From contig JALVWQ010000062.1 in NCBI GenBank assembly GCA_027034975.1, positions 1-64,000 on the forward strand: a stretch of DNA of 64,000 nucleotides, given 5' to 3'. The number at the start of each line of letters is the position of its first letter. Position 1 is the stretch's first letter. The notes below the pieces were generated by a model that saw only the letters and a list, made by a program, of their open reading frames with translations, ran no database searches and had not been told where the DNA came from. The position numbers and the translations under genes were made by a program. Below are positions 2,904-55,634 of the stretch, one piece after another. Origin of the DNA: Campylobacteraceae bacterium (GTDB taxonomy: Bacteria; Campylobacterota; Campylobacteria; Campylobacterales; Sulfurovaceae).

Positions 2904-2907
2904 TAAA

Positions 2908-3080
2908 AAGCTCAGAGCCTAGAGCTCAGGGCTTAAAGCTAAGAGTTAAGAGCTTACTCAAACTCCAACATCATTATTTAACTCAAATTTTATTTTCCTC
3001 CTAGTACTTTTTTTAATGACACAATAACCAAATTTGTACTTCAAGCTTTCTGCTTTTAGCTTTTAGCTTTACCTCTTAAC
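2908..3080. repeat. Heptamer repeat family A, copy with degenerate right arm
   Basis: aagctcagagcctagagctcagggcttaaagctaagagttaagagctta (2908-2956) and heptads GCTTTCT GCTTTTA GCTTTTA GCTTTAC (about 3045-3071). Confidence 0.6.
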
Positions 3081-6220: not shown

Positions 6221-7194
6221 TGATGTTTGAATTTTACCATAGCGAGTATCTGTGGGGGTTACTAGTAATCCTGCCGATGCTCCTTTTTACAAAAGAGAAA
6301 AAAAATGATATTAGCAAAATATTTAAAAAAGAGATTCTAGAGAAGATTCGCATAAATAACGGCTCTATTAACAATAAGATGCGTTCACTTCTCTTAATAG
6401 GAAGCTTTGCCTTTATGGTCATTGCCCTAGCAAGACCTATTATTAATAATGGAAAGATAGAGGTAAAATCGAATTTTCTAAGCATGGTTACAGCTATTGA
6501 TATATCGCAATCGATGTTTGCAAATGATGTTTATCCTTCTCGATTTGAGTTTGCAAAAAAGAAGTTTATCGATATGCTCCCCTATTTAAAAAATACAAAA
6601 GTTGCCCTTATTGGCTTTAGTTCGCAGACATTTTTAGTTTCGCCTTTAACTGAGGATTTCCACTCATTAAAGTATTTAGCTAAAAATATGCAGATGGGGA
6701 GTGTAAGCCTAAGAGGAACCGATATTCTAGCAACCCTTAAGAGTGCAAACGACCTTTTGCAAAACCAAAAGAATAAGATTTTACTCCTCTTTACAGATGG
6801 TGGCGATCAAAAAGATTTCTCGCAAGAGATAGAGTATGCAAAGACCCACAATATAACCGTGTTTATCTATGGTGTCGGAACCAAAAAAGGGGGCATCATG
6901 AGGGGTACAAATGGAGTTGTTAAAGATAGAAACGGAAATATTGTAGTTGTAAAACTCAACTCTAAAATCAAAGAGTTAGCACTCAAAACAGGAGGTGCCT
7001 ATATGGAACAATCACTCAAAAAAGATGACATTAAAGCACTAATTACAGCAATGCAAAGCCGCTTTAAAGCCGATAGTGAAAGTAAAGATACCATTATTGA
7101 TAAAAGAGAACTCTTTATTGTTCCATTAAGTGTAGCTCTCTTGCTTCTTGCTTTAAGCCTCTTTTCACTCCCACTAAAAAGGAGAAGCCTATGA
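6217..7194 (+). CDS. batB: VWA-domain membrane protein BatB
   Basis: AIDISQSMFANDVYPSRFEFAKK, LLFTDGGDQ; overlaps batA by 4 nt. Confidence 0.85.
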   Translation: MMMFEFYHSEYLWGLLVILPMLLFTKEKKNDISKIFKKEILEKIRINNGSINNKMRSLLLIGSFAFMVIALARPIINNGKIEVKSNFLSMVTAIDISQSMFANDVYPSRFEFAKKKFIDMLPYLKNTKVALIGFSSQTFLVSPLTEDFHSLKYLAKNMQMGSVSLRGTDILATLKSANDLLQNQKNKILLLFTDGGDQKDFSQEIEYAKTHNITVFIYGVGTKKGGIMRGTNGVVKDRNGNIVVVKLNSKIKELALKTGGAYMEQSLKKDDIKALITAMQSRFKADSESKDTIIDKRELFIVPLSVALLLLALSLFSLPLKRRSL

Positions 7195-8132
7195 GATCTA
7201 TAGCAATCCTCATAATATTGAATAGCATCTTGTTTGGTGGAGTCTTAGATTTTTACCATCTTAAAAAAGCAGATAGAGCATACAAAGATGGCAACTACCA
7301 AGAGGCAGCAAAAGAGTATGGGTATCTTCAAAGCGACCAAGCAAAGTATGACCGTGCCAATAGCCTCTACAAAGCAAAAAAGTATCAAGAGGCACTTGAT
7401 CTCTATAAGAGTATCAAGAGTAAAGATTTAGAGTTTAAAAAGCTGCACAATATGGGCAACACTCTTGCCCATTTAGGTAAAATTGATGAAGCTATTAAAG
7501 CTTATGAGCAGGCACTCAAGATTAAAGAGGATAAAGAGACACGATTCAACTTAAATCTTTTAAAGAGAGAGAAGAAGAAACAGCAGCAGCAAAAGAAAAA
7601 TCAAAAGAAAAATAATAAAAACAAGAAGAACGATAAGAAAAATAAACAAAATAAAAATAATCAACAAAAAAATCAAAATAAATCTGATAAGAGTAATCAA
7701 GATAAGAAAAAAGAGCAAAAGAAGAATCAAAAGAGCGATCAGAAAAAGCAAAATCAAGATCAGCAAAAGAGAGAGAGACAAAAAGATCGGCAGCAGCAAG
7801 ATCAAAAGAGTAAGCAAGATCAAAAGAGTAAGCAAGATCAAAAGAGTAAGCAAGATCAAAAGAAGAAAGAAGAGCAAAAAAAGCAGCAAGAGCAAAAGAA
7901 AGAGCAAGCAAAGAAGAAAGAGCAGCAGATGTCGCAAACTCAGAGAGAAAAAGAGCAAAAGAAAAAAGAGAAACAAAAAGCTCCAAAGTTACAGCAAGCA
8001 AAACTTAAAAAAGTTCCAATCTCAGATATGGAAGAGCGAAAATGGCAAAAGCTACTGAACCAAAATGAGGTTAATACCCTCATGTTACCATTAAGAAAAG
8101 GAGAAAAAAAGCATGAAACAACACCTTGGTAA
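7191..8132 (+). CDS. batC: TPR protein BatC with long K/Q/N-rich low-complexity tail
   Basis: TPR-like DYKDGNYQEAAKEYGYLQ...LHNMGNTLAHLGKIDEAIKAYEQALKI; then a K/Q/N tract. Confidence 0.8.
   Translation: MRSIAILIILNSILFGGVLDFYHLKKADRAYKDGNYQEAAKEYGYLQSDQAKYDRANSLYKAKKYQEALDLYKSIKSKDLEFKKLHNMGNTLAHLGKIDEAIKAYEQALKIKEDKETRFNLNLLKREKKKQQQQKKNQKKNNKNKKNDKKNKQNKNNQQKNQNKSDKSNQDKKKEQKKNQKSDQKKQNQDQQKRERQKDRQQQDQKSKQDQKSKQDQKSKQDQKKKEEQKKQQEQKKEQAKKKEQQMSQTQREKEQKKKEKQKAPKLQQAKLKKVPISDMEERKWQKLLNQNEVNTLMLPLRKGEKKHETTPW
7800..7865 (+). repeat. 18-bp in-frame tandem repeat within batC
   Basis: GATCAAAAGAGTAAGCAA x3 plus a partial copy, encoding (DQKSKQ)n. Confidence 0.9.
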
Positions 8133-9654
8133 AATAGTTTTACTGATACTCTTTACATTTAGCCTCTATGCTTCAAGTGTAAAGCTAGAGGTAAACACAC
8201 CTACAATCTATAAAGGAGATTATGCCAAGTTTACTATACGAGCTAGTGGCAATAACATCGATTTTCCAACAATCAAAGAGATCGAAGGCTTTAGTGTGCA
8301 TCCAAATGGCACAAGCTCTTCAATTAATATAATTAATGGCAATGTCACAAAAACATATGCCAAAAGCTATGTCTTTAAGCCAGACAAAGAGGTTACAATT
8401 CCCTCTTTTAATGTAACAATCGATGGCAAAATCTATACTACAAAGCCTAAAAAGATCACTATTTTAGAGCCGCAAGCTGCTACAAATGGTGATCCATACA
8501 TCCTTGAACTCAAAGTTAATAAGAGCAACCTCAAAGTAGGCCAGAGTACACAACTCAAAATTCTCTATAAGCAGCGATTCGATGCCAAAGCTGATAAAAT
8601 CAATATTAGTGAACCAAAAATCGATAACTTTTGGGTAAAAAAACTAAGAGATCAAAAACAGTATCAAGAGGGGAACTATATTGTCACTGAGTATGACTAC
8701 CTTATCTTTGCCCAAAAGCCTGGCAAGTTCCATATTAAACCAATTATTGCCAATATTGGTAAATTTGTACAGCGTTCAATAAGTGATAACTTCTTTAATG
8801 ACCCATTCTTTAACTCTATGTTCTCTGAACTCAAATGGAAAAAGGTTTACTCAAATGATTTAGCAATTCAAGTAGAACCGCTGCCAAATGGTTTAGAGCT
8901 CTTTGGAGACTTTACCATCTCTGCTACTGTTGATAAAAAGAGTGTCTATGCAAATAAACCGGTCAATCTAACAATTAAAGTTGAAGGCGTTGGCAATATC
9001 GATGATGTACAAAAGTTTGATCTCAATATCGAAAATGCAGTTGTCTATGCCGATAAACCAAAAATAGAGTCATTTCTAAAAAATGGAGAGTATGGGGGTA
9101 TATTTAGCCAAAAGATAGCCATTATTGCCGATAGAAACTATACAATACCACCAATAAAGCTACAATTCTTTAGCAAAAAAGAGAATAGGATAAAAACAGT
9201 CAAAACGGAACCAATCTCTATTGCAGTAATTGGTGGCAGCACTACAACTACACCAACCACTGCGAAAGTAGAGACAGCCAATGGAGTACAAGAGAGTACA
9301 AAAACTGAGCCAAAAGTTATTACCAAAAAAGTAGAGGTCGAAAAAAATCCTGCTCTAAAGTATATACTCTTTATTGCAGGACTTCTCTTAGGGGCAAGTG
9401 CAGTTATTCTCTATAATCGATTCAAAAATAGAGGCAAAAGAAAAAAAGAAAATGATATAATTAAACGAATTAAAAATACTAAAGATAACAAAAAGCTCTT
9501 TGATATCCTCTTGCCATACGCAAATGATAATGAAGTGATTGCACAAACACTCAAAGCATTAGAGGAGAATATCTATAAGGGTGCAAAGAATAAAATAGAC
9601 AAACAAAAACTCTATGATTACTTTTTGGATCTAGAAGAACAGAAAAGAAGCTAA
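8113..9654 (+). CDS. batD: BatD-like (oxygen tolerance) membrane protein
   Basis: Signal peptide, VKLEVNTPTIYKGDYAKFTI, repeated Ig-like segments, C-terminal TM; overlaps batC. Confidence 0.82.
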   Translation: MKQHLGKIVLLILFTFSLYASSVKLEVNTPTIYKGDYAKFTIRASGNNIDFPTIKEIEGFSVHPNGTSSSINIINGNVTKTYAKSYVFKPDKEVTIPSFNVTIDGKIYTTKPKKITILEPQAATNGDPYILELKVNKSNLKVGQSTQLKILYKQRFDAKADKINISEPKIDNFWVKKLRDQKQYQEGNYIVTEYDYLIFAQKPGKFHIKPIIANIGKFVQRSISDNFFNDPFFNSMFSELKWKKVYSNDLAIQVEPLPNGLELFGDFTISATVDKKSVYANKPVNLTIKVEGVGNIDDVQKFDLNIENAVVYADKPKIESFLKNGEYGGIFSQKIAIIADRNYTIPPIKLQFFSKKENRIKTVKTEPISIAVIGGSTTTTPTTAKVETANGVQESTKTEPKVITKKVEVEKNPALKYILFIAGLLLGASAVILYNRFKNRGKRKKENDIIKRIKNTKDNKKLFDILLPYANDNEVIAQTLKALEENIYKGAKNKIDKQKLYDYFLDLEEQKRS

Positions 9655-9758
9655 GAGCATAGGGCAAAGAGCTAGAGGCGTGGCTTGCCACTTTATATGA
9701 AAGAGAATCCATACAAAAACAGAGAGCTCTAAGCTCTAGGCTCTGAGCTCTAAGCTTA
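9649..9758. repeat. Heptamer repeat family A copy
   Basis: Left arm agctaagagcatagggcaaagagctagag; hairpin GTGGCTTGCCAC (9680-9691); right arm agagagctctaagctctaggctctgagctctaagctt. Confidence 0.75.
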
Positions 9759-11653: not shown

Positions 11654-11953
11654 CTACTCCTCTTTATTGCGGCCTCTAAAGAACCAAATAGTAAAGAGAA
11701 CTCCAAGTACAATATTAAAAAGAGAATTTTCGCCTAAGCTCTCTAGTTCTGTATAGAGTTTTGCTTTTAAGAAACTATCGCTGCTACTTGCTTTGAGAGC
11801 AAAGAAGTGTTTAATTTCGTCGCCATAGAAGTATGCGGCTACTTCTGGTACAAAAAAGAAAAAAATAATCCCAAGCAAAGCCCACCAACTACGCCCTGGT
11901 TGTAGCTTTGTTTTAAGCTCTTCTAGTTTTTCTTGATTAATACGAACTTTCAT
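11654..11953 (-). CDS. Small membrane protein of unknown function
   Basis: 99 aa, two predicted TM segments, SD aaagg upstream of ATG. Confidence 0.65.
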   Translation of the reverse strand: MKVRINQEKLEELKTKLQPGRSWWALLGIIFFFFVPEVAAYFYGDEIKHFFALKASSSDSFLKAKLYTELESLGENSLFNIVLGVLFTIWFFRGRNKEE

Positions 11954-11971
11954 GGTTTTCCTTTGGAAAAA

Positions 11972-12100
11972 AGCTTAGAGCTAAGGGCTGAGAGCTTAGA
12001 GCTTATTGTGCGACTTCGTCGCGTTTGATTTGTGGCTTTGCCACATTAACAAAGGAGAAACCACCTTGTTGGCTCTTCGCTCTGTGCTCTAGGCTCTTAG
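11972..12100. repeat. Heptamer repeat family A copy (full)
   Basis: Left arm aagcttagagctaagggctgagagcttagagctt; hairpins GCGACTTCGTCGC (12010-12022) and GTGGCTTTGCCAC (12032-12044); right arm ggctcttcgctctgtgctctaggctcttagc. Confidence 0.85.
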
Positions 12101-12101
12101 C

Positions 12102-12128
12102 AGTAAGTTAAGCAAAGCTTAACTTACT
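12102..12128 (-). terminator. Hairpin overlapping glmS stop codon
   Basis: AGTAAGTTAAG-CAAAG-CTTAACTTACT, 11-bp perfect stem. Confidence 0.6.
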
Positions 12129-15333: not shown

Positions 15334-15474
15334 AAAAGCTAAGAGCCAAGTGCCGAGAGCTTAGAGCTAACAAAGTAGCTTTGCTTTATTTATGCGGCAA
15401 GGCCGCAAATAAAACGCGACAAAGTCGCACCGCTAGCTCTGTTGCTCTAAGCCCTAAGCTCTTAGCTTATTTTA
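15334..15474. repeat. Heptamer repeat family A copy (core inverted)
   Basis: Left arm aaaagctaagagccaagtgccgagagcttagagct; hairpins GCGGCAAGGCCGC (15394-15406) and GCGACAAAGTCGC (15416-15428); right arm ctagctctgttgctctaagccctaagctcttagct. Confidence 0.85.
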
Positions 15475-18561: not shown

Positions 18562-18593
18562 AAGCTTAGAGCCAAAGACGAAGAGCCTAGTGC
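18562..18593. repeat. Partial heptamer repeat family A (one arm)
   Basis: aaagcttagagccaaagacgaagagcctagtgctt. Confidence 0.5.
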
Positions 18594-33147: not shown

Positions 33148-33167
33148 TTATAACCTTTGGTTAGTTA

Positions 33168-33292
33168 AAGCTTAGAGCTGAGGGCTTAGAGCTAGTGGTG
33201 CGACTTCGTCGCGTTTAATATTTGTGGCTTCGCCACATAAAAAGGCGAAGCCACCTTGTTAGCTCTTGACTCTTAGCCCTACGCTCTTAGCT
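33168..33292. repeat. Heptamer repeat family A copy (full)
   Basis: aagcttagagctgagggcttagagct; GCGACTTCGTCGC (33200-33212); GTGGCTTCGCCAC (33224-33236); agctcttgactcttagccctacgctcttagctt. Confidence 0.85.
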
Positions 33293-33317
33293 TCAAAAAC
33301 TGTTACACAGTTTTTGA
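33293..33317 (-). terminator. Hairpin overlapping hemN stop codon
   Basis: TCAAAAACTGT-TAC-ACAGTTTTTGA 11-bp stem. Confidence 0.6.
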
Positions 33318-34667
33318 GAAACTCTTCTTGCTCCCCATATACTTTTGCATATAGGCATCAAACGGCATTGCTATATTACGAATTAACAAAGTTCCCGTTT
33401 CGCTCACTTTTAGCTTATCTTCGCTTAAAGTTACAAGCCCTTCTTCTATAAATTCATTCAAAGATTCGAGAGAATCGGCAAAATACTCTTTAAAGTTGAT
33501 GCCAAGTTCACTCTCTACTCTTTTAATATCAATAGAGAAGTTTGCCATCAGCTCCATAATGACCTGTTTTCTGATATAGTCATCTTCGCTTAACTCTACA
33601 CCTCTCTCAAATGGCAACTTGCCACTCTCTATTGCATCTTCATAGGCTTTCATATCTTTTGTATTTTGAGCATAGTATCTAGCACCCTCGCCAATACTTG
33701 TTAGCCCAATGCCAATTAGGTTTGCACCACCTTTTGTTGTGTAGCCTTGAAAGTTTCTATGTAGCTCACCCTTCTCTATCGCTCCAAATAGCTCATCTTC
33801 AGGCTTTGCGAAGTGATCCATCCCTATCATCTTGTAGCCATTCTCTGTTAAAAAATCTATTGTATACTGAAAAATTGCTAACTTTGTTGCTGGGCTTGGA
33901 ATTGTTGTCTCATCAAACTTACGCATAGTCTTTTTAAGCCACGGTACATGGGCATAGTTAAACACAGCTAATCTATCTGGATTGAGCGTAACAATCTTCT
34001 TAAGTGTCTCTTGAAAGCTCTCTAAACTCTGGTATGGCAAGCCATAAATGAGGTCTGTATTGATACTATTGATCCCATAGCTTCTTGCTAAATCAACAGC
34101 AGCTTTTGTTAGCTCATAGGGCTGGACTCTATGCACCGCCTCTTGTACTTTAGCATCAAAATCTTGCACCCCAAAGCTAATACGGTTAAAGCCATGGCTT
34201 TTAAATACCTTCATCTGCTCTTCGTTAAAAAACCTTGGATCAATCTCGACACTAATCTCTGCCTCGCTAGAGAAGTTAGGAAATGCCTTTTTAATGTAGT
34301 CCATTATTGCATCTAGCTCATAAGCACTATAGTAAGTTGGCGTGCCACCCCCAAAGTGAAACTGAATAACTTCGCGAGAGGTATCTAAATGCGAGGCTAA
34401 AATATCTATCTCTTTTTTTAGATACTCTACATAGCGACTGAGCTTATTCTCTTTAGAGGTAAAGACAACATTACACCCACAAAAGTAACAAGCACTTCTA
34501 CAAAATGGCAGATGCACATAAAGCGAGAGTCTCTCTTTGCCCTCCTCTAGGTACTTTAAGTAGCTCTCATACTTAAAGTCGTCACTAAACTCTAGTGCAG
34601 TTGGGTAGCTTGTGTATCTTGGTCCTGGTTTAGAATATTTACTAAACTGCTCTAAATCTATACTCAT
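33303..34667 (-). CDS. hemN: Oxygen-independent coproporphyrinogen III oxidase
   Basis: YVHLPFCRSACYFCGCNVVFT; HFGGGTPTYYS; SIGEGARYYAQN. Confidence 0.95.
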   Translation of the reverse strand: MSIDLEQFSKYSKPGPRYTSYPTALEFSDDFKYESYLKYLEEGKERLSLYVHLPFCRSACYFCGCNVVFTSKENKLSRYVEYLKKEIDILASHLDTSREVIQFHFGGGTPTYYSAYELDAIMDYIKKAFPNFSSEAEISVEIDPRFFNEEQMKVFKSHGFNRISFGVQDFDAKVQEAVHRVQPYELTKAAVDLARSYGINSINTDLIYGLPYQSLESFQETLKKIVTLNPDRLAVFNYAHVPWLKKTMRKFDETTIPSPATKLAIFQYTIDFLTENGYKMIGMDHFAKPEDELFGAIEKGELHRNFQGYTTKGGANLIGIGLTSIGEGARYYAQNTKDMKAYEDAIESGKLPFERGVELSEDDYIRKQVIMELMANFSIDIKRVESELGINFKEYFADSLESLNEFIEEGLVTLSEDKLKVSETGTLLIRNIAMPFDAYMQKYMGSKKSFSKTV

Positions 34668-41212: not shown

Positions 41213-41228
41213 TGTTTTCCTTTATGAA

Positions 41229-41338
41229 AAGCTTAGAGCTCAGAGCCAAGAGCTTAGTGCAAATTGTGCGACTTCGTCGCGTTTTATTAAAAGAAGTTAC
41301 CTTGTTAGCTCTCTGCTCTCAGCCCTTAGCTCTTAGCT
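41229..41338. repeat. Heptamer repeat family A copy
   Basis: aagcttagagctcagagccaagagctta; GCGACTTCGTCGC (41268-41280); ttgttagctctctgctctcagcccttagctcttagct. Confidence 0.85.
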
Positions 41339-41368
41339 CGATATTAAATGCAACAGCATTTAATATCG
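41339..41368 (-). terminator. Hairpin overlapping stop codon of the radical SAM gene
   Basis: CGATATTAAATGC-AACA-GCATTTAATATCG 13-bp stem. Confidence 0.6.
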
Positions 41369-42313
41369 ATACCCCGCTTTCGCTAACTCTTGTTTAATTC
41401 GTCCCATGAGATAGTTTTTACTCTCACCACACCAGCTAGGAGCTAGCAGAGAGTCATCTTCTATTCCAGCTGTAACTCTTTGTACTATTATATCTTTTGG
41501 CATCATCTCAATCGCTTTAATAAGTGTATCTATATACTCATTTAACTCAATTGGGGTAAATTCTCCACGATTATACTCGTTTGCTAGTATTGTATTTTTT
41601 ACCACATACAATGGATGGAACTTTATAGAGTCTATCCCCCACTCATATGCTGCTTTTGCGGAGTTGAGCATCATCTCTTGGTTTTCGCCTGGCAAGCCAA
41701 AAATAAGATGGCCACACACATTCAAGCCATACTCTTTCGCCCTCTTTATAGCCATCTCAACATTTTTAGCATCATGCCCTCTATTGATCCGATTGAGTGT
41801 CTCATCATAGATCGACTGAATGCCATACTCTATCCAAATCTCATGGCTCTTGCTCAATTCGCTTAAATACTCTAAAACACTCTCCTCTACACTATCGCTT
41901 CTTGTACCAATGCTAAGTCCAATAACATCTTTCTCCTCAAGAGCCTTAGAGTAGAGCTTTTGGAGAGTATCAAAAGGGGCATAAGTGTTTGTAAAAGCTT
42001 GAAAGTAAGCTAAGTACTTTTTGTATCCAAGCGGTTTGAACTCTCGCTTTGATCCATTAATTTGCGAAACCACTTGCATTAACTGAGACTCTATTAATGG
42101 ATTCTCCTGCGAGCTTAAGTTTAGAAAAATCTTATCTTTGTTTTTTGCAACATTTGGACTAAAAGAGTCATTTAAGCAGAAGGTACAGCCACCTTTAGCA
42201 ACAGTACCATCGATATTTGGACAGGTAAAGCCACCAATTGCTAGGGGGATCTTTTTAACACGCACCCCATACTTTGCTTGTAAATAACTTCCAAATGTTC
42301 TAATTTTTTGCAT
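41360..42313 (-). CDS. TIGR01212/YhcC-like radical SAM protein
   Basis: RTFGSYLQAKYGVRVKKIPLAIGGFTCPNIDGTVAKGGCTFC; YFQAFTNTYAPF. Confidence 0.9.
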   Translation of the reverse strand: MQKIRTFGSYLQAKYGVRVKKIPLAIGGFTCPNIDGTVAKGGCTFCLNDSFSPNVAKNKDKIFLNLSSQENPLIESQLMQVVSQINGSKREFKPLGYKKYLAYFQAFTNTYAPFDTLQKLYSKALEEKDVIGLSIGTRSDSVEESVLEYLSELSKSHEIWIEYGIQSIYDETLNRINRGHDAKNVEMAIKRAKEYGLNVCGHLIFGLPGENQEMMLNSAKAAYEWGIDSIKFHPLYVVKNTILANEYNRGEFTPIELNEYIDTLIKAIEMMPKDIIVQRVTAGIEDDSLLAPSWCGESKNYLMGRIKQELAKAGYRY

Positions 42314-50253: not shown

Positions 50254-50300
50254 TTGGGCTCTAAGCCTAAGCTCTTGGCTTTTAGCTTAGCGTTAGCTCT
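50254..50300. repeat. Partial heptamer repeat family A
   Basis: tgggctctaagcctaagctcttggcttttagcttagcgttagctct. Confidence 0.55.
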
Positions 50301-55575: not shown

Positions 55576-55608
55576 AAAAAGCTCTCAGCTCTTGGCTTCA
55601 AGCTCTAA
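55576..55608. repeat. Partial heptamer repeat family A (one arm)
   Basis: aaaaagctctcagctcttggcttcaagctct. Confidence 0.5.
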
Positions 55609-55610
55609 TC

Positions 55611-55633
55611 TCAAAAAGGGGGAAACCCTTTTT
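55611..55633 (-). terminator. Rho-independent terminator of rpmE
   Basis: AAAAAGGG-GGAAA-CCCTTTTT. Confidence 0.75.
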
Positions 55634-55634
55634 G

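Follow-up and report, generated by a model that had tools for sequence, protein, structure and literature searches.

Heptamer repeats between bacterial genes (in Xanthomonas, Nostoc and Beggiatoa) have been noted repeatedly without a mechanism. TAACTGA repeats have a patchy distribution in Beggiatoaceae, Cyanobacteria and Bacteroidetes, where their mechanism is unexplained and a binding protein has been proposed; they are direct repeats of one word, with a single inverted case, and end within a few nucleotides of the start codon (PMC4679880). GGGNATC repeats, found in Xanthomonas and Nostoc, comprise 2-26 units of G-quadruplex-type words (PMC4692102). BrickBuilt is a MITE that carries an internal minisatellite of 23-base units (PMC4596501), while the definition of REPIN/RAYT systems includes a GTAG/CGTC-tagged palindrome (PMC3733652). 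Heptad arrays also occur in the omega/ParB operators of pSM19035, in which contiguous, non-palindromic 7-bp units are arranged in direct and inverted order, one ribbon-helix-helix (RHH) dimer binds per unit and at least four units are needed (PMC9499535).

Element A, the subject of this report, is a ~137-base, non-coding, dispersed intergenic repeat of a single Campylobacterota clade, in which two inverted arms surround a hairpin core. It was analysed in a 64,000-nucleotide window, contig C62 of a 1.77 Mb genome in 68 contigs (G000), in 12 genomes of the genus (G000-G011) and in 175 genomes of the family (1e-8 cut-off). When 22 full copies, taken from six genomes, were aligned, they yielded a consensus whose layout, conserved in these copies, was conserved again in a later set of 88. 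The left arm reads AAGCTnAGAGCnnAGRGCnnAGAGCttAGAGCTnr. The core begins with hairpin 1 (GCGRCTnnGYCGC), followed by TTTAATATTT and hairpin 2 (GYGGCTTTGCCRC), and continues with an A-run, hairpin 3 (RGCGAAGCY) and ACCTTGTT before the right arm of inverted heptads. The period of seven in the GAGCTNA heptad of an earlier, sequence-based description (the initial annotation) holds, although ARAGCNN describes the fixed part better, the pentamer A[G/A]AGC being constant at 7-bp spacing and the two bases after it free. In most copies a single pentamer, either AGAGC or AAAGC, is used throughout both arms, and five units are present in 61 of 88 left arms and 57 of 88 right arms. Each copy holds up to three covarying hairpins; pair 4 of hairpin 1 is GC in 49 copies, AT in 20 and CG in two with zero mismatches, and pair 1 of hairpin 3 is GC in 39 and AT in 33 with five mismatches.

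When architectures alone are compared, ERIC and RU-1-like repeats are akin to element A in size and intergenic position. Like MITEs (PMC10969869), element A is short, non-coding, intergenic, hairpin-forming and lineage-restricted, with inverted ends and dozens of copies. Unlike either MITEs or ERIC, its arms are phased arrays of near-fixed number whose pentamers, but not spacers, are under constraint at orthologous sites, no accompanying direct repeats were found, and hairpins at its junctions mirror the end of the neighbouring gene. It shares with TAACTGA repeats 7-base units before start codons and a patchy occurrence over distant lineages, but differs in its ARAGCNN unit, inverted arms, two free bases per unit and hairpin core (PMC4679880). 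GGGNATC heptads are likewise intergenic, combine five conserved positions with two variable ones and in some cases form inverted pairs, but have no common hairpin core and a highly variable unit number (PMC4692102). Tandem units, small inverted ends and an intergenic location are common to BrickBuilt and element A, the units being internal in the former whereas the 7-base units of element A themselves form the inverted ends (PMC4596501). None of the known relatives found joins phased, near-fixed pentamer arms, free spacers, a swappable core and mirrored junction hairpins. A literature search for intergenic palindromic repeats in Campylobacterota found nothing, and an Rfam scan of the window returned no family at gathering score. 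Element A is filed among the bacterial intergenic (MITE/ERIC-like) repeats as a new variant.

The initial annotation had listed four full copies in the window, one with its core inverted relative to the arms, together with several fragments. All four copies were recovered and align with one another, the inverted core lies on the minus strand at 15336-15469, and most of the fragments are real. Bit scores derive from covariance model R1.

11970-12103, plus strand: full element A, the reference copy (R1, 137 bits), with orthologous copies in G005, G006 and G009.
11970-12005, plus strand: left arm of the reference copy, AAAGC/AGAGC/AGGGC/AGAGC/AGAGC at 7-bp spacing, read from the sequence.
12010-12022, plus strand: hairpin 1 of the reference copy, GCGAC-TTC-GTCGC, terminator-like on the plus strand with a T-rich stretch after it.
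12032-12044, plus strand: hairpin 2 of the reference copy, GTGGC-TTT-GCCAC, from the sequence and stem covariation.
12054-12062, plus strand: hairpin 3 position of the reference copy, GGAGAAACC, degenerate (consensus RGC-GAA-GCY).
12072-12102, plus strand: right arm of the reference copy, inverted heptads GCTCTNN, read from the sequence.
12102-12128, no strand assigned: junction hairpin, a 12-bp perfect stem with the glmS stop codon inside, ending at the element.
15336-15469, minus strand: full element A, core inverted relative to the window (R1, 128 bits).
33161-33293, plus strand: full element A (R1), core inverted versus the orthologous copies in G001 and G004.
33293-33317, no strand assigned: junction hairpin, 11-bp stem, mirroring the last codons of gene 33303-34667.
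41228-41339, plus strand: element A without hairpin 2 (R1, 96 bits).
41338-41369, no strand assigned: junction hairpin, 14-bp stem, mirroring the last codons of gene 41360-42313.
9647-9757, plus strand: degenerate copy with both arms and a single GTGGC-TT-GCCAC hairpin (R1, 58.8 bits).
2907-3069, plus strand: arms only, seven mixed AGAGC/AAAGC heptads and then an AAAGC-type inverted arm (34.9 bits).
18562-18593, plus strand: lone degenerate left-type arm.
50254-50300, minus strand: lone right-type arm.
55576-55608, minus strand: lone right-type arm, with a 9-bp junction hairpin 4 nt on, at 55612-55634.

The reference copy lies between glmS, the upstream gene, and the ORF at 11654-11953, both on the minus strand. 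At 2907-3069 the two arm types enclose unrelated DNA. As had been reported, no transposase is visible in the window copies, and no coding region lies inside them. Two other kinds of repeat in the window fall within ORFs: 18-bp and related low-complexity repeats at 7564-7921 (ORF 7191-8132), and a 300-bp direct repeat, 71% identical, at 1746-2045 and 2517-2816 in two neighbouring ORFs, which are probably paralogous genes.

Covariance-model searches of G000 gave 55 matches with strands counted separately, or about 28 places, and copies elsewhere in the genome matched those of the window at E values down to 1e-34, well outside what chance would give. Strong copies occur in 6 of the 12 genus genomes (G000, G001, G004, G005, G006 and G009), with 98 model matches (~49 places) in G005, 72-73 in each of G004, G006 and G009, and 30 in G001. 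G010 and G003 hold weak matches only, and no model matches were found in G002, G007, G008 or G011. At 1e-8 any match was confined to 10 of the 175 family genomes and strong ones to this genus; the repeat is dispersed genome-wide and lineage-restricted. In G010, G003, G014 and G141, the weaker matches consist mostly of heptad arms that enclose different cores. Similarity of the glmS protein groups the strong element bearers together: identity to G000 is 88-90% in G004, G005, G006 and G009 and 78-82% in the rest, glmS not being found in G001. The sampled phage and plasmid collections contained no copy of element A.

The copies occupy the space that separates a stop codon from a ribosome-binding site. 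Among the 86 copies with two flanking genes, the genes are co-directional in 70 cases, divergent in 14 and convergent in 2, and the median distance is 21 nt to the start codon and 17.5 nt to the stop codon. The view that all copies are intergenic stands broadly, with 7 of the 86 overlapping a predicted ORF by >20 bp. Lone arrays also lie beside RNA genes. A GCTCTNN-type array at L018:298-333 (contig C60 of G000) ends ~5 nt before the tmRNA gene (L018:339-703) and likely sits inside the tmRNA 5' leader. In another genus, a GCTCTNN array at L037:1501-1531 (G014, contig C70) lies just upstream of RNase P RNA (L037:1544-1879), and the final unit of the array continues into a TATAAT hexamer.

About 20 sites, identified by flank matching, are common to several species, and across these orthologs the conserved features (a five-letter word that recurs every seven bases, about five times in each arm) can be told apart from the variable ones (both spacer bases, the core and its orientation). 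In 28 comparisons, arm-type changes excluded, divergence was 26/780 (3.3%) in pentamers, 122/312 (39%) in spacers and 570/3169 (18%) in the 60-nt flanks, the last of which is not a neutral rate because the flanks are partly coding. Pentamers were thus spared about tenfold in decay, in a set that under-counts decayed copies since it is conditioned on model matches. When flanks were followed at four sites only, a small sample (window 11970, 15336, 33161 and 41228), heptad arms were present in nearly all clade genomes read, the exceptions all being G004, and outside the clade the gap at these sites was short or held unrelated sequence.

We tentatively favour, at slightly less than an even chance, a reading in which element A is an intercistronic repeat whose arms are a protein-read binding array and whose hairpins are insulators, and which arrived by insertion into stop/start gaps. 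The arms would form a fixed-number array bound in double-stranded DNA by a putative protein, one protomer per heptad, which would account for constrained pentamers and free spacers. The binding mode is modelled on ribbon-helix-helix proteins at heptad operators; the omega operators, which have the consensus WATCACW and serve plasmid partition, are a working model for the arms by analogy only, with no homology claimed (PMC9499535). The split between kept and free positions predicts a DNA-binding factor with 7-bp stepping, for which the arm duplex is a defined probe.

The arms might instead act in RNA: paired with each other between the cistrons of an mRNA, they would make a long stem by which the transcript is protected or attenuated, a role proposed for REP and ERIC. 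The consensus arms can indeed pair (-48.8 kcal/mol), AGAGC stands opposite GCTCT and AAAGC opposite GCTTT in most copies, the hairpins covary and the element lies between co-directional genes. The spacer bases of the two arms, however, are complementary at 0.361 of positions versus 0.383 expected; the commonest pentamer variant, AGGGC, lies opposite AGAGC in 21 listed cases and opposite AGGGC in none; and G-U-compatible changes are not enriched on the transcribed strand. Non-complementary spacers and uncompensated pentamer variants point to sequence reading rather than pairing, and the RNA reading is improbable. Reading of the arms by a putative protein on double-stranded DNA is the simplest interpretation and fits best.

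The core stems, unlike the arms, covary. A terminator pattern was matched in 54 of 82 cores on the plus strand, 28 of 82 on the minus strand and 20 on both strands, compared with 3.7%, 0.7% and 0%, respectively, of shuffled cores; a terminator role for the core hairpins is a pattern match. In the protein-array reading, hairpins 1 and 3, together with the junction hairpin, would be two-way, terminator-like insulators between neighbouring genes.

Cores had been said to flip or lose hairpins while the arms persist, and both events are seen at orthologous sites. At the 33161 site the core is reversed in G001 and G004, yet G000 and G001 agree completely over ~25 nt of the outer arm on the side of the upstream gene, which makes this a true in-place core inversion. 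In the G005 ortholog of the 41228 copy the core is complete and points the other way. Other orthologs show clean loss of hairpin 2 or hairpin 1 (L525/L530 versus L052, L524 versus L004, L110 versus L056). Core inversion may reflect recombination or template switching between arms. Elsewhere the two arms have changed together, AGAGC giving way to AAAGC in both (L005/L502, L017/L522/L527, window 15336/L110); the 15336 site is element-free in G003, G007 and G011 and holds AAAGC-armed elements in G004, G006 and G009. As about nine parallel point mutations would otherwise be required, such a switch calls for arm replacement by another copy, independent insertion in the same narrow gap, or rewriting. 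Under molecular drive, the pentamer array would be a signal for uptake or recombination that biased gene transfer, not per-site function, maintains; replacement of the whole arm type at one site would then be a consequence of transfer, and pentamers would be retained with no constraint on the spacers. Known uptake words nevertheless do not resemble fixed 5+5 phased arrays in stop/start gaps, and we consider this explanation very unlikely.

An origin in slippage was rejected. A period of 7 and the existence of lone arms might suggest heptanucleotide tandem repeats that grow by slippage, their inversion being accidental, and the initial annotation had likened the arrays to cyanobacterial STRRs. 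That likeness fails if slipping repeats are meant: unit number is nearly fixed, near 5 per arm, and the spacers of adjacent units are no more alike than chance (0.131 versus 0.147 expected). Full copies, moreover, have both arms and a common core, and we give the slippage reading almost no credence.

Several other repeats accompany or replace element A. GTAGGGG-type inserts occur in G004 at two of the four flank-followed sites. L112 (G004), the ortholog of window 11970-12103, holds a different palindromic insert, GTAGGGGCAGACC...GGTCGTCCCCTAC, beside possible arm remnants, and in L548 (G004), upstream of the 40241 ortholog, the insert GTAGGGGCAGACC...GGTCGTCCCCTAC takes the place of the relatives' heptad-armed element. 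In L044, L513, L035, L506 and L516 (G005 and G009), element A lies beside or between the palindromic repeat GTCATTCTGAGCGNAGCGAAGAATCT and its reverse complement, the two being cleanly nested in L044. The interval from glmS to the next gene in G009 (L110:10810-11300) has gained ~440 bp, a pile-up of heptad arrays (GGATTACGGAATAC, TTATCAA, CTGTCAC and AAAGCNN) plus hairpins, where the genes almost touch in G000.

The junction hairpins are new here, being absent from the initial annotation, and are a physical clue to how elements enter or are kept. These perfect hairpins of 9-15 bp abut element A and mostly mirror the last codons of the upstream gene. Of 69 boundaries on the stop-codon side, 23 have a perfect hairpin with a stem of 9 bp or more that ends at the element (0.07% with shuffled flanks), representing 18 independent sites; eight boundaries have one on the start-codon side. 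In 19 of the 23 the hairpin includes part or all of the upstream stop codon, so that half of its stem consists in part of coding sequence. The window contains 10 such hairpins in all, of which four touch an element or lone arm, and element-bearing loci totalling 268 kb contain 59 hairpins outside elements, 32 of which abut an element, these loci having been chosen for elements, with orthologs included, and the boundary zone making up only about 1% of them. The element-proximal half of the hairpin is missing at the element-free 33161 site of G002, G003, G007 and G011 and at the element-free 41228 site of G002 and G010. Two explanations are considered: the element may come in beside hairpins of this kind, or its arrival may create them through fold-back copying at the gene end. 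That they are ordinary terminators is a weaker reading, because a T-run after them is rare.

These results bear on how the elements reached their sites, which in the protein-array reading would have been by insertion into stop/start gaps. The initial annotation had suggested modular mobility; the modular architecture stands, while mobility is only inferred, there being no clear target duplication and no link to a Y1_Tnp transposase. Orthologous sites without the element were found in relatives, and many other sites are old and common to several species. Copies at different sites are more similar within a genome (median 0.743) than between genomes (0.704), which suggests spread or homogenization within lineages. 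The longest words shared by the flanks averaged 4.07 versus 3.83 by chance (p 0.003, orthologs included), a weak excess with no fixed length, comparisons of occupied and unoccupied sites revealed no target-site duplication, and a 7-bp repeat at the 15336 site doubles as a ribosome-binding word. A few arm pairs at a distance from each other occur in element-bearing loci, and none was shown to flank a transposase.

Two enzymatic origins were also rejected. The proposed RAYT/REPIN link does not hold, as the presence of Y1_Tnp does not track the repeat across the 12 genus genomes: it is present in the repeat-free G008 and G011 and the nearly repeat-free G003, and absent from the repeat-bearing G001 (71% complete). 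G000 has a single IS200-like copy, with a stop, and the consensus has no terminal GTAG/CGTC tag of the kind that marks REPINs. Reverse transcriptase (RVT_1) was present in only 1 of the 12 genomes.

Element A could also be a MITE relic without host function, its arms the terminal inverted repeats of a lost transposase and the gaps simply tolerated sites. The inverted termini, short length (~137 bp), lack of an ORF, intergenic position and lineage restriction are all MITE traits, the element-free sites in relatives are as expected of such a relic, and the within-genome likeness suggests lineage-specific spread. Set against this are the tenfold sparing of pentamers at orthologous sites, the lack of a consistent target duplication or a visible autonomous copy, and the failure of Y1_Tnp to track the element. 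We regard the relic as possible but on the unlikely side.

Matches to inverted AGAGC heptads extend beyond the family. Species genomes among the matches listed include Verrucomicrobia, Actinomycetota, Bacteroidota, Nitrospirota, Rickettsiales and others, with unrelated cores and some matches that may be due to chance. That AGAGC is a unique cross-phylum word was ruled out by control words in viral contigs, where stretches numbered 73 for AGAGC, 35 for AGACG, >120 for GACGA and 32 for period-8 AGAGC; inverted-arm stretches numbered 12 for period-7 AGAGC, 5 for AGACG and 1 for period-8 AGAGC. The control words and the differing pentamers on viral contigs indicate that it is the architecture that recurs, not the word. 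It is conceivable, though doubtful, that heptad-armed inverted repeats constitute a cross-phylum modular class in which the arms, about five phased pentamers whose word varies from genome to genome, are the conserved unit and are read by a mobile or widespread factor, the cores are interchangeable cargo, and insertion folds the gene end into a hairpin. One Opitutae MAG has at least 8 inverted AGAGC heptad matches, most with a common core. Viral contig IMGVR_UViG_3300044960_000747 carries at least seven copies built from AGAGC arms that have free spacers and enclose a GACACAGATTCTGGTCTCT-type core, and viral contig 3300036851_000385 has five copies with AGACGCC arms and a conserved core of their own.
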